A DNA stretch of 64,000 nucleotides from Tabrizicola oligotrophica (GTDB lineage Bacteria > Pseudomonadota > Alphaproteobacteria > Rhodobacterales > Rhodobacteraceae), in assembly GCF_011008935.1 (NCBI RefSeq), contig NZ_JAAIVJ010000008.1:1-64000 (forward strand), in the 5' to 3' direction. Position 1 is the stretch's first letter. Each line of letters opens with the position of its first letter. A program made the translations under genes and the position numbers. The notes below the pieces were generated by a model. It was not told where the DNA came from. It searched no databases and saw only the letters and a list, made by a program, of their open reading frames with translations. This document shows positions 59,815-64,000 of the stretch, one piece after another.

Positions 59815-59878
59815 ACTGCCGCTTGGCCTTTTGCCCGTGATTGGCTAAAGCCTGCGGGACGATGTGAGGATGCCCGCG

Positions 59879-62800
59879 ATGCCGATGGAAAAGACCTTCT
59901 CCCCCGCCGAGGCCGAAGCCCGGATTTCGAAGCTCTGGCTGGAGGAAAAGGCCTTCCGCGCCGGGGCGAATGCCAAGCCGGGACACCCTGCGTTTTCGGT
60001 GATGATCCCGCCGCCGAACGTGACGGGCAGCCTGCATATGGGCCATGCCTTCAACAACACGCTGCAGGACATTCTGGTGCGCTGGCACCGGATGCGCGGC
60101 GATGACACGCTCTGGCAGCCCGGCACCGATCATGCCGGCATTGCCACCCAGATGGTGACCGAGCGCGAGATGGCGCAGAACGGCGAACCCTCGCGCCGCG
60201 AAATGGGGCGCGAGGCGTTCCTGTCCCGGGTCTGGCAGCAGAAGGTCAAATCGCGCGGCACCATCATTGGCCAGTTGCAGCGGCTCGGCGCCTCCTGCGA
60301 CTGGGACCGCGAGGCCTTCACCATGTCGGGCGCACCGGGGGCGCCGGCGGGCGAGGCCGGCAACTTCCATGACGCCGTGATCAAGGTCTTTGTCGAGATG
60401 TATCGCAAGGGGCTGATCTATCGCGGCAAGCGGCTGGTGAACTGGGACCCGCATTTCGAAACCGCGATTTCCGACCTTGAGGTGGAAAACACCGAAGTCG
60501 CCGGCCACATGTGGCATTTCAAATACCGGCTCGCGGGCGGCGAAACCTATGACTATGTCGAGAAGGACGCCGACGGCACTGTGACCCTGCGCGAGACGCG
60601 CGATTACATCTCGATCGCCACCACCCGGCCCGAAACCATGCTGGGCGACGGCGCGGTGGCGGTGCATCCCAGTGACGAACGCTATGCCCCGATCGTCGGC
60701 AAGATGGTGCATCTGCCGCTCTGTGACCGCCTGATCCCGATCATTGCCGACGAATACCCGGACCCGGATTTCGGCTCGGGCGCGGTGAAGATCACCGGCG
60801 CACATGATTTCAACGACTATGGCGTGGCCAAGCGCAACGCCCTGCCCTGCTACCGGCTGATGGACAGCCGCGGCCGGATGCGGGCCGATGGTGCGGCCTA
60901 TGACATCGCCGTGCGGCGCGCCCGCGAGATCGCCGCCGGCTCTGCGACCAGCGAATCCGAAGTCGACAGCCTGAACCTCGTGCCCGAGAAATACCGCGGG
61001 CTGGACCGGTTCGAGGCGCGCAAGCTGGTGGTGGCCGACATCAATGCGCAAGGCCTGTCCGTCGTGGTCAAGGTCAAGTCGATCGACCCGGAGACCAACG
61101 CGGAAGACTGGAAGAACCTGCCTTTCGTCGAGGACAAGAAGATCATGCAGCCCTTTGGCGACCGCTCCAAGGTCGTCATTGAACCCATGCTGACCGACCA
61201 GTGGTTCGTCGACACCGCCAAGATCGTCGAACCCGCGCTGGAGGCGGTGCGGACCGGCAAGACGAAGGTCATCCCGGACTCGGGCGAAAAGACCTATTAT
61301 CACTGGCTGGAGAACATCGAACCCTGGTGCATCTCGCGCCAGCTGTGGTGGGGCCACCAGATTCCGGTGTGGTATGGGCTGGCGCTCGACCCGGGCAGCT
61401 TCACCGATGACGAAGGCGACGATGCGCTGGACGAGGTGGAACTGCTCACCATCCTCGGCGATGGCGGTCCGAGCGAACGCGAAGCCCGCCATCATTGCGC
61501 CGCCGATTTCGCCACTGTGACCGAGGCGTTCCGCGACGATCTCGCCGCCCTGCCGCATCCCTTGAACGCCTGCCGCGTGGTCGAGGTCGCCAATCGCCAC
61601 GCCGCCGTGACGCTCTTGGCGCAGTCGCTGGCCGATTACAACCTGAGCCAGGACCCGACGCATCTGGCCTACCCGGTCTGGCGCGACCCCGACGTCCTGG
61701 ACACCTGGTTCTCCTCGGGCCTCTGGCCGATCGGCACGCTGGGCTGGCCCGAACCCACCCCGGAACTGGCGCGGTATTTCCCGACCAGCGTTCTGGTGAC
61801 CGGGGCCGACATCCTGTTCTTCTGGGTCGCCCGGATGATGATGATGCAGCTGGCGGTGGTGGACCAGATTCCGTTCCACACCGTCTATCTGCACGGGCTT
61901 GTCCGCGACGCCAAGGGCAAGAAGATGTCGAAATCCTTGGGCAATGTCATCGACCCGCTGGAAATCATCGACGAATTCGGCGCCGACGCGCTGCGGTTTG
62001 CCAATGCGGCGATGGCCTCGCTTGGCGGCGTCTTGAAACTCGACACCCAGCGCATCGCCGGCTACCGGAACTTCGGCACCAAGCTGTGGAACGCCTGCCG
62101 CTTTGCCGAGATGAACGGCGTCTGGGAGGGCCATGCCACCCAGAACGCCGCCCCCAGGGCCGAGGCCACTGCCAACCGCTGGATCATCGGAGAAACCGCC
62201 CGCACCCTGGCCGAGGTGAACGAGGCGCTGGAAAACTTCCGCTTCGACCAGGCCGCCGACACGCTTTACAAATTCGTCTGGGGCAAGGTCTGCGACTGGT
62301 ATGTCGAATTTGCCAAGCCGCTCTTCGATGGCGCCCATGCGGATGAGACCCGCGCCACCATGGCCTGGGTGCTGGATCAGTCGATGATCCTTTTGCACCC
62401 GTTCATGCCCTTCCTCACCGAAGAACTCTGGTCCACCACCGGAATCCGCGCCAAGCGGCTGGTCCATACCGACTGGCCAGCCTTCGCCGACCTGACCGAT
62501 GCGGCGGCGGCGACCGAGATGGGCTTCGTCACCGGGCTGATCGACGAAATCCGCTCGGCGCGGGCGCAGGTGCATGTGCCGGTCGGCCTGAAATGCGATC
62601 TGGTGGCAACCGAACTTTCGCCCGCCGCCCGCGCGGCCTGGGCGCGCAACGAAGCCCTGATCCGCCGCATGGCGCGCATCGAAGGCTTCAGCGAAGGGCC
62701 GGCGCCGAAAGGCTCCATCGCCATCGCCATGGAGGGCGCGGGCTTTGCCCTGCCGCTCGAAGGTCTGATCGACATTGCCGAGGAAAAGGCGCGGCTGGCC

Positions 62801-62980
62801 AAGGCCATGGACAAGCTGATGAAGGAAATCGGTGGCCTCAAGGGGCGGCTGAACAACCCCAATTTCGTCAAATCTGCCCCCGAAGAGGTGATCGACGAGG
62901 CCCGCGCCAATCTGGAAGCCCGCGAGGACGAGGCCGCCAAGCTGCAGGCTGCCGCCAGCCGGCTCGCCGAAATCGGCTGA
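59879..62980 (+). CDS. valS: Valyl-tRNA synthetase
   Basis: This protein of about 1033 residues is a class I synthetase that charges tRNA-Val. The HIGH-like motif is in [15 protein letters not shown], the editing (CP1) domain follows ([17 protein letters not shown]), and the KMSKS motif is [13 protein letters not shown]-terminal coiled coil (about 960-1033) is typical. I start at ATG 59879 ([15 protein letters not shown]). In-frame starts at 59864 (GTG) and 59870 (ATG) would add a few residues. Confidence 0.96.
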
Positions 62981-62983
62981 GGT

Positions 62984-63012
62984 CATCTGTTCGAAAATAT
63001 CCTCGGGGGGTT
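62984..63012 (+). repeat. Dispersed repeat, shortened copy after valS
   Basis: GTCATCTGTTCGAAAATATCCTC followed by GGGGGG resembles copy 3 in its first half but lacks the second hairpin arm. It begins 4 bp after the valS stop. Confidence 0.6.
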
Positions 63013-63029
63013 GAATGGCCGCAGGCCAG

Positions 63030-63058
63030 AAGGGGGGCAGACAGCCCCCCTTCTTCTT
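63030..63058 (+). terminator. Rho-independent terminator of valS
   Basis: A perfect 9-bp stem AAGGGGGGC/GCCCCCCTT (63030-63038, 63044-63052) with loop AGACA is followed by CTTCTTCC, 50 bp after valS. Confidence 0.75.
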
Positions 63059-63066
63059 CCGGCAGG

Positions 63067-63169
63067 CGATTTCCGGCGCGGAAATCGCGGCGGAGTTTGG
63101 CGCAAGCTCCGGGCCCCTGTCCCCGATTTCTGCGCCAGAAATCGACCGCGGAATTTGCGCCAAATTCCG
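63067..63169. repeat. Cluster of four alternating 21-nt hairpins
   Basis: Each hairpin has a 9-bp stem and 3-nt loop: 63067-63087 (arm CGATTTCCG), 63091-63111 (CGGAGTTTG, one G-T pair), 63124-63144 (CGATTTCTG) and 63149-63169 (CGGAATTTG). Types A and B alternate, so a two-hairpin unit is repeated with 57-58 bp period. Confidence 0.85.
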
Positions 63170-63212
63170 CCCGCGTCTTGCCCGGACCGGATTTTTGCGC
63201 TTCCCTGTTGCC

Positions 63213-64000
63213 ATGACAGCCCTACGCCTCACCCCGCTTGCCGCCTCGCTGCCCTCCACCGTGCCCTTCGTCGGCCCTGAGACGCAGGAGCGCAGCCTTG
63301 GCCGCCCGTTCCGCGCCCGGCTTGGTGCCAATGAAAGCCTGTTCGGCCCCTCGCCCCACGCCATCGCGGCCATGGCCAAGGCCGCGACAGAAGTCTGGAT
63401 GTATGGCGACCCCGAGCTTTTCGAGCTGAAGGCCGCGCTTGCCGCGCATCACGCCTGCCGCCCGGACCATATCGTTGTCGGTGAAGGGATTGACGGGCTG
63501 CTGGGCTATCTCACCCGGCTGATGATTGCGCCGGGTGACAAGGTTGTCACCTCGCTCGGCGCCTATCCGACCTTTCCCTTCCACGTCGCGGGCTTTGGCG
63601 GCGAGATCATCCGCGTGCCCTACAAGGGCGACCATGAAGACCCCGAGGCGCTGGTCGCTTGCGCCCGGGCGCACCGGCCGAAACTGGTCTATCTCGCCAA
63701 CCCCGACAACCCGATGGGCAGCCATCACGCCGGCCCGGTGATCGAAGCCATGGTCGCGGCGCTGCCGCCTGAAAGCCTGCTCATTCTGGACGAGGCCTAT
63801 ATCGACCTCGCCCCGCCCGGCACCGCGCCGATGATCGCACCGGACGATCCCCGCGTCATCCGCTTCCGTACCTTTTCAAAGGGTTACGGCATGGCGGGCC
63901 TGCGCGTCGGCTATGCGATCTGCGCCCCGGACCTGGCGCGGGCCTTCGACAAGATCCGCAACCATTTCGGCATGGGCCGCATCGCGCAGGCGGGGGCGCT
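63213..64000 (+). CDS. PLP aminotransferase, HisC-like (truncated by window end)
   Basis: The frame is open from ATG 63213 to the window end (262 codons seen). It has GEGIDGLLGYLTRLMIAPGD, the substrate segment LANPDNPMGSHH, LILDEAYIDLAP and the PLP-lysine motif FSKGYGMAGLRVGYA. The protein belongs to the histidinol-phosphate aminotransferase-like group of class I/II aminotransferases, but a different amino-acid substrate is possible. No strong Shine-Dalgarno is seen. The hairpin cluster lies 43 bp upstream. Confidence 0.85.
   Translation, partial: MTALRLTPLAASLPSTVPFVGPETQERSLGRPFRARLGANESLFGPSPHAIAAMAKAATEVWMYGDPELFELKAALAAHHACRPDHIVVGEGIDGLLGYLTRLMIAPGDKVVTSLGAYPTFPFHVAGFGGEIIRVPYKGDHEDPEALVACARAHRPKLVYLANPDNPMGSHHAGPVIEAMVAALPPESLLILDEAYIDLAPPGTAPMIAPDDPRVIRFRTFSKGYGMAGLRVGYAICAPDLARAFDKIRNHFGMGRIAQAGA

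Follow-up and report, generated by a model that had tools for sequence, protein, structure and literature searches.

REP, BIME and REPIN palindromes are short and extragenic, number at least in the tens, frequently form inverted pairs and lie between tandem or convergent genes, all of which holds for the element described here; they are its nearest described kind. Bidirectional intrinsic terminators are symmetric and are often found between convergent genes or directly 3' of stop codons, and fungal mitochondrial DNA contains intergenic double-hairpin and repetitive hairpin elements. Sponge mitochondrial DNA has repetitive hairpin elements too, invading ones according to the title of the report (PMC2800124); they resemble our element as intergenic hairpin repeats, belong to other genomes and are likened to it by description. 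As described in the main text of PMC3733652, the CGTC families of REPs are mostly alphaproteobacterial, with species from every order of that class among their hosts; their stems measure 8-9 bp and no transposase is associated with them. That main text contains no mention of Rhodobacter, Roseobacter, Ruegeria, Silicibacter, Jannaschia, Paracoccus or Rhodobacterales, and Rhodobacterales species may be among the CGTC-family hosts it covers. In the literature searched, mostly at the level of titles and abstract openings, no earlier description of the four-hairpin family was found.

The window analysed here, a stretch of 64,000 nt from Tabrizicola oligotrophica, holds four hairpins between valS and an aminotransferase gene, as the original prediction had it; pattern scans and folding place them at 63067-63169. 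The features of this region are listed below, where A and B are stem types and > and < are orientations.

59870..62980, + strand: valS, the upstream gene (NCBIfam PRK05729, valine--tRNA ligase, 1167 bits against a cut-off of 704; start from our own gene caller)
63028..63054, + strand: intrinsic-terminator-like hairpin with T-rich tail, 3' of valS, distinct from the element and upstream of it (shuffled versions of the region would give 0.5 such sites)
63067..63087, + strand: hairpin A, CGATTTCCG-GCG-CGGAAATCG, loop type RCR (>)
63091..63111, + strand: hairpin B, CGGAGTTTG-GCG-CAAGCTCCG, one T.G pair, loop type RCR (>)
63112..63123, no strand: spacer of 12 nt between both doublets
63124..63144, - strand: hairpin A', loop CGC on + and GCG on -, inverted (<)
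63149..63169, - strand: hairpin B', CGGAATTTG-CGC-CAAATTCCG on +, inverted (<)
63178..63206, + strand: promoter-like TTGCCC-17-TTCCCT, putatively of the aminotransferase gene, downstream of the hairpins; a similar pair is present in three of four genomes with the same gene order
63213..63998, + strand: PLP-dependent aminotransferase, PRK08153-like and HisC-related (435 bits against a cut-off of 510, the gene being truncated where the window ends)

The stems of A, A' and B' are perfect over 9 bp, and A and B' reach 10 bp with a flanking pair; hairpin B is not fully Watson-Crick because of its one T.G wobble, so that of the predicted 9-bp stems and 3-nt loops, which all four hairpins display, only the B stem needs this qualification. 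The predicted 57-58 bp repeat is found as offsets of 57 (A to A') and 58 (B to B'), with 24 nt between A and B and 25 nt between A' and B'. Since the loops read GCG, GCG and then CGC, CGC, the second doublet is inverted: the alternation A-B-A'-B' that had been proposed is correct for the order of stem types, but the block is not a plain direct repeat and its layout is >><<. The compensated stem change, C:G to T:A between A and A', is found on both arms. With up to two mismatches the A pattern gave four matches in the window (two sites, both strands) against 0.19 expected, and with up to three mismatches the B pattern gave three against 0.00 expected. A covariance model trained on 91 doublet sequences matched 63067-63111 (+) with 60.6 bits and 63124-63169 (-) with 56.6 bits. 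RNA folding of the strand 62981-63215 yielded z = -5.9, and the two doublets folded as single-stranded DNA yielded z values of -2.95 and -4.88.

The element ends 43 nt upstream of the aminotransferase start codon, which is where a leader RNA controlling that gene could lie, and such an RNA control region had been proposed. We consider this role highly improbable because the promoter-like pair lies downstream of the hairpins and is common to three of four genomes; moreover, the other copies stand beside many different genes, near stops rather than starts. The same valS-aminotransferase gene order was read in four of the 25 genomes with valS located, namely the window's own (G000), G200, G201 and G215. 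Ending 6-7 nt before the ATG, the pair recurs in the form TTGCSC-17-TTCCYT in G000, G200 and G215 and is weak in G201; a sigma-70 consensus scan gave no match at it, and it is a putative promoter of the aminotransferase gene. A riboswitch or leader was made unlikely by this pair and by Rfam 15, which at gathering score had no match at the element, just a tRNA elsewhere in the window; four sub-threshold hits fell in 62900-63300. Read by eye, the full set of four hairpins (hereafter quad) is present at this border only in G000 among the four genomes; hairpins of another type number four in G200 and two in G201, and there are none in G215. Those of G200 and G201 at this border (L253, L261) have TGGC or GGC loops.

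A scan of 62900-63300 for GC-rich hairpins with a T-tract found only the separate valS terminator. The region of this terminator (62983-63062) matches unannotated plasmid stretches at about 77-85% identity among the best 20 of 21 records, with hosts in Leisingera, Phaeobacter, Paracoccus and Thioclava and, by tally, Cereibacter. When plasmids were searched with the element region, only the valS terminator part matched (among 20 of the 21 records). Judged by sequence, this region is a separate, repeated, terminator-like module of the Rhodobacteraceae.

Further copies of the hairpins, expected by the original prediction, were found for both stem types. The window's own genome, 3.85 Mb in 62 contigs, has 15 places with the A pattern and 12 with the B pattern, against none for a reversed control pattern; the covariance model adds more, and further quads lie at C1:807104-807209 and C15:18228-18333. 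Seven of 198 genomes drawn from the family Rhodobacteraceae carry the A pattern. It is abundant in the own genus, where three of four genomes have it at 15, 12 and 18 places, and in genus g105, where it occurs in 18 of 19 genomes at as many as 26 places. When named genomes were scanned, at least 115 stretches with the A pattern came up; among the 80 listed are Tabrizicola, Rhodobacter kunshanensis, R. amnigenus, R. ruber, Gemmobacter straminiformis, Cypionkella and Pseudorhodobacter, and 21 of the 80 come from unrelated groups, nearly all as single places and many without an adjoining second hairpin. Searched with strict filters and with E up to 1e-4, the covariance model matched 45 of 295 family genomes, own included, where no more than 21 candidates were scored in each genome and per-genome counts are lower bounds, and 3 of 289 genomes drawn from the class, own included, all three of the same family. 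The model's matches are thus confined to the own family in the samples searched. Six places were found by the model in 400 kb of G201, and seven (E up to 2e-4) plus two weaker ones in 464 kb of the own genome including the window; 100 kb each of G148, G009, G013 and G003 (L332-L351) contained no 24-nt doublets. Density is uneven, because the samples of G148 and G009 were empty though the model matches elsewhere in those genomes; G013 and G003 have no listed covariance-model match.

Two viral contigs (L173, L174) carry the exact A pattern, and L174 has a doublet with other loops; these contigs may be prophages or host pieces. A phage origin of the element was made unlikely by the absence of any phage-collection match and by there being just these two viral contigs with the exact pattern.

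Hairpins adjoining A copies reveal that A and B are only two among many stem types. A hairpin of the family begins with C G, continues with five mostly A/T pairs and T G (or C G), and then has an RCR loop, in most cases ACG, followed by the complement; the pitch is 24 nt in 106 of 114 same-facing RCR hairpin neighbours (at least 8 of 9 pairs, distance up to 60 nt). The layout was read at 59 sites of G200, G201 and G202, fetched for holding an A hairpin: 41 are exactly >><< (RCR RCR ... YGY YGY), 11 are single doublets (6 >>, 5 <<) and 7 take other forms, where two of the 59 are halves of one place (L297), one of two at L327 is probably not of the family, and two of the 59 stretches fetched gave no site. 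Extra doublets were seen at L057 (1941-2095), where they are repeated about 110 nt apart, and at the six-hairpin sites L315 and L319. Among 94 oriented doublets with clear loops, G stands at position -1 in 78%, no tetranucleotide is conserved outside the stems and the GTAG/CGTC end tag is absent; CGTC occurs in doublets only where it spans loop and stem (TG-CGT-CA). No T-rich tail follows the doublets 3', the T fraction being 0.03-0.19 in the eight following columns.

The window block is one copy of an extragenic Rhodobacteraceae element family, made of four short hairpins and largely inherited in place. The earlier suggestion of a REP-like family was right as to kind, although the terminal GTAG/CGTC tag, a RAYT-type transposase and frequent G-T stem pairs were not found. 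Set against the description in the main text of PMC3733652, loops are 3 nt here instead of the 4-5 nt of the CGTC families, head-to-tail dimers, 'negligible' there, occur here as 24-nt doublets inside an inverted pair, the conserved unpaired end tag of GTAG/CGTC REPs has no counterpart, and G-T stem pairs, frequent there, are rare (18 of 3060). The inverted pairs (41 of 59 sites with >><<) recall BIMEs and REPINs, from which the element differs in that each arm is a tandem doublet and that full quads of G201 are not related over their whole length, neither in flanks nor in spacers. From bidirectional intrinsic terminators it is set apart by the missing T-tract, the AT-rich stem middle, the conserved loop and pitch, and its occurrence also in divergent gaps.

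As to function, our tentative reading, somewhat short of an even chance, is that the element is a transcription boundary acting in both directions. Whichever side RNA came from, it would first run into a double hairpin with RCR loops; this double hairpin would mark or protect the 3' end and curb read-through or antisense transcription into the next unit, with no U-tract involved. The partner would probably be Rho or a hairpin-binding factor reading the loop, and stems would change by template switching while selection keeps pitch, loop and layout. It is possible, though rather unlikely, that the family forms an undescribed class of two-way boundary, a quad free of U-tracts in which a dedicated factor reads loop orientation (RCR versus YGY) and the 24-nt pitch and the stems are free to vary. 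The strict geometry and symmetry fit a boundary. Against it count the lack of a T-rich tail after the doublets, the terminator-like hairpin that valS already has of its own, and the fact that the window's copy is not common to the three relatives with the same gene order.

That the fold is being kept, as the original prediction held, follows from partners found by position alone and from orthologous sites. In 400 kb of G201, a partner with at least 8 of 9 pairs lies exactly 24 nt from 21 of the 23 perfect RCR hairpins, and all six heptamer doublets have 14 of 14 outer pairs; such pairing, found by position with no condition on the stem, supports a boundary. In the 400 kb of the own genome there are no heptamer doublets and three perfect RCR hairpins, whose best partners have 9, 7 and 5 pairs. 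With so few hairpins and such mixed partners, the rule of loop and pitch is looser in the own genome, a point against the boundary. Two TGRCRCA heptamers 24 nt apart, again with no stem condition, occur at 135 places, with at least 8 of 14 outer pairs at 134 and all 14 at 114; single heptamers most often have 1-2 of 7 pairs, and 106 of them form a second maximum at 7 of 7. Of 786 places 24 nt from a perfect hairpin, 293 have 9 of 9 pairs by position alone, about half of the 786 being expected to be empty because each hairpin was tested on both sides. In both the 135-doublet and the 786-place counts the tested stem was unconditioned, and most loci had been fetched for an A hairpin.

Mismatches in the stems comprise 18 G-T and 19 A-C among 3060 pairs, taken from 340 partner hairpins that have 6 or more of 9 pairs. 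Their equal rarity is as expected if RNA of both strands must fold, and it speaks for a two-way transcription boundary. The same strand-neutral pairing would also be produced by a boundary at the DNA level, where the palindromes would act as cruciforms, single-stranded hairpins, or protein or gyrase sites and form a topological or nucleoid border between transcription units; gyrase targets the REPs of E. coli according to the main text of PMC3733652. We hold this to be unlikely yet worth weighing: the doublets do fold as single-stranded DNA, with the z values given above, but a pitch of 24 nt does not amount to an integral number of DNA turns, and this would speak against a dimer bound on one face of double-stranded DNA.

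When 163 sites were sorted by both of their flanking genes, 26 groups formed; by our own reading 19 of these join different genomes and seven are one genome under two names or one locus twice. Thirty site comparisons were kept, 27 having been dropped for unequal doublet numbers (real or from cut records) and nine because the records were identical; one of the 30 sets two doublets of the single locus L297 against each other, and comparisons within a group are not independent. In these, stems are identical in 71 of 104 hairpins, and among 936 pairs 55 changed on both sides with pairing kept against 14 that changed otherwise, which favours a conserved boundary. The distance from doublet to doublet varies between orthologous sites (e.g. 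40 and 93 nt, or 61 and 49 nt), and elements stand at the same borders across species despite altered stems and spacers. Within the own genus a doublet lies by the same gene in the own genome (L003), in G199 (L035) and at L164, which by its position is probably in G178, with a compensated change in the second stem.

Most of these orthologous changes keep Watson-Crick pairs and there are few mismatched intermediates, as would be seen if template switching between the arms restored the palindromes under little selection. Template switching has been proposed, in the parts of PMC8794818 drawn on here, to create and maintain hairpins. As a full account it is quite improbable, since it leaves unexplained the 24-nt pitch, the loop orientation and the layout at orthologous borders whose spacers have diverged; it may be how the stems change.

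A different origin would be that of REP- or MITE-like mobile palindromes, spread by a transposase yet to be identified, slowly decaying and tolerated in gene borders. The many extragenic palindromic copies with inverted pairs as in BIMEs and REPINs agree with this, as do presence and absence at the same border among relatives and the duplicated doublets at L057, L315 and L319. We nevertheless regard it as improbable: full quads of G201 share no flanks and their spacers match over 10-14 nt only (10 hits listed), stems differ between copies while the layout is constant, and the same borders are occupied in several species, once across genera (G297). Copy-and-paste of the whole element was made unlikely by the missing flank similarity between those G201 quads. 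The Y1 transposase (PF01797) was found in none of five genomes, the own included; in 20 other genomes there was none in 18 and weak matches in two, one of them just over the cut-off, with control genomes positive in 5 of 14 in both searches. A RAYT-driven REP was made unlikely by these results.

The placement of the copies relative to genes was then compared with that of ordinary gaps, using gene borders from our own codon-usage gene caller. Of 57 loci with sites, 56 were classed as 30 tandem, 18 convergent and 8 divergent; the control comprised 110 gaps of at least 130 nt, all from 400 kb of G201 and not cleared of elements, of which 18 are convergent, 56 tandem and 36 divergent. For tandem sites the median distance is 8 nt from the preceding stop and 157 nt from the following start, and 28 of 30 are closer to the stop. 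Convergent gaps are enriched (18/56 versus 18/110, p 0.03) and divergent ones depleted (8/56 versus 36/110, p 0.015). Sites near stops, the convergent excess and the divergent shortage support a transcription boundary, and the strong pull to stop codons and convergent gaps argues against a DNA-level one. A simple scan found canonical terminators at 3 of 60 gene ends beside elements, where one of them is itself a hairpin of the family type, and at 15 of 110 control ends; they are not clearly rarer at element-side gene ends, a point against the transcription boundary.

The divergent sites weigh the other way. Four or more hairpins were counted at 22 of the 30 tandem sites, at 15 of the 18 convergent ones and at all 8 divergent ones, so that the whole quad may be the unit, both doublets being kept even in tandem gaps. 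All eight look divergent when read singly, some starts being uncertain, and some of them share a divergent border across several genomes (L299/L314; L273/L128/L057). Neither neighbour's transcript should cross such a site, which counts against the transcription boundary and favours a border in the DNA. With the strand-neutral pairing, these sites would also fit a DNA-level role.

One border was followed across many genomes. Among the genes at occupied borders are ones that we take, recognising them from sequence, to be smpB, purD, xseA, carB and a sulfurtransferase. On the 3' side of the smpB-like gene 29 loci were read, one of which ran off its contig, and the quad is present in 8 of the 28 assessable genomes; another double hairpin (centre TTCGAA or alike) occupies the same spot in 5 of 28, and neither kind of hairpin is found in 15 of 28, the window's genome among them, which counts against a boundary function. 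G297, of another genus, has a quad after this gene with different stems. Read by eye, 6 of the 8 quads have a 4-nt loop in their third hairpin, and in the g105 genomes with hairpins at this border a shared TTGCCA-17-TACTTG-like stretch, weaker in some, follows them. This stretch is probably a promoter, and the position of the hairpins mostly ahead of it is in keeping with a boundary between transcription units.

The second kind of double hairpin (CAAATTCCTTCGAAGGAATTTG-like) was read after the smpB-like gene at L358, L363, L365, L370 and L383, and also at L009. In G203 an ACG-type hairpin remains beside a CAAATTCCTTCGAAGGAATTTG-like double hairpin, as if hairpin types replace each other.

If the bidirectional boundary is real, these elements would be signals of a new kind at gene borders, used in a large bacterial family and accounting for part of its intergenic DNA. 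They also offer a natural test case, in which perfect hairpins keep their pairing while stems change, at the same border across species, with pitch and loop as internal controls.
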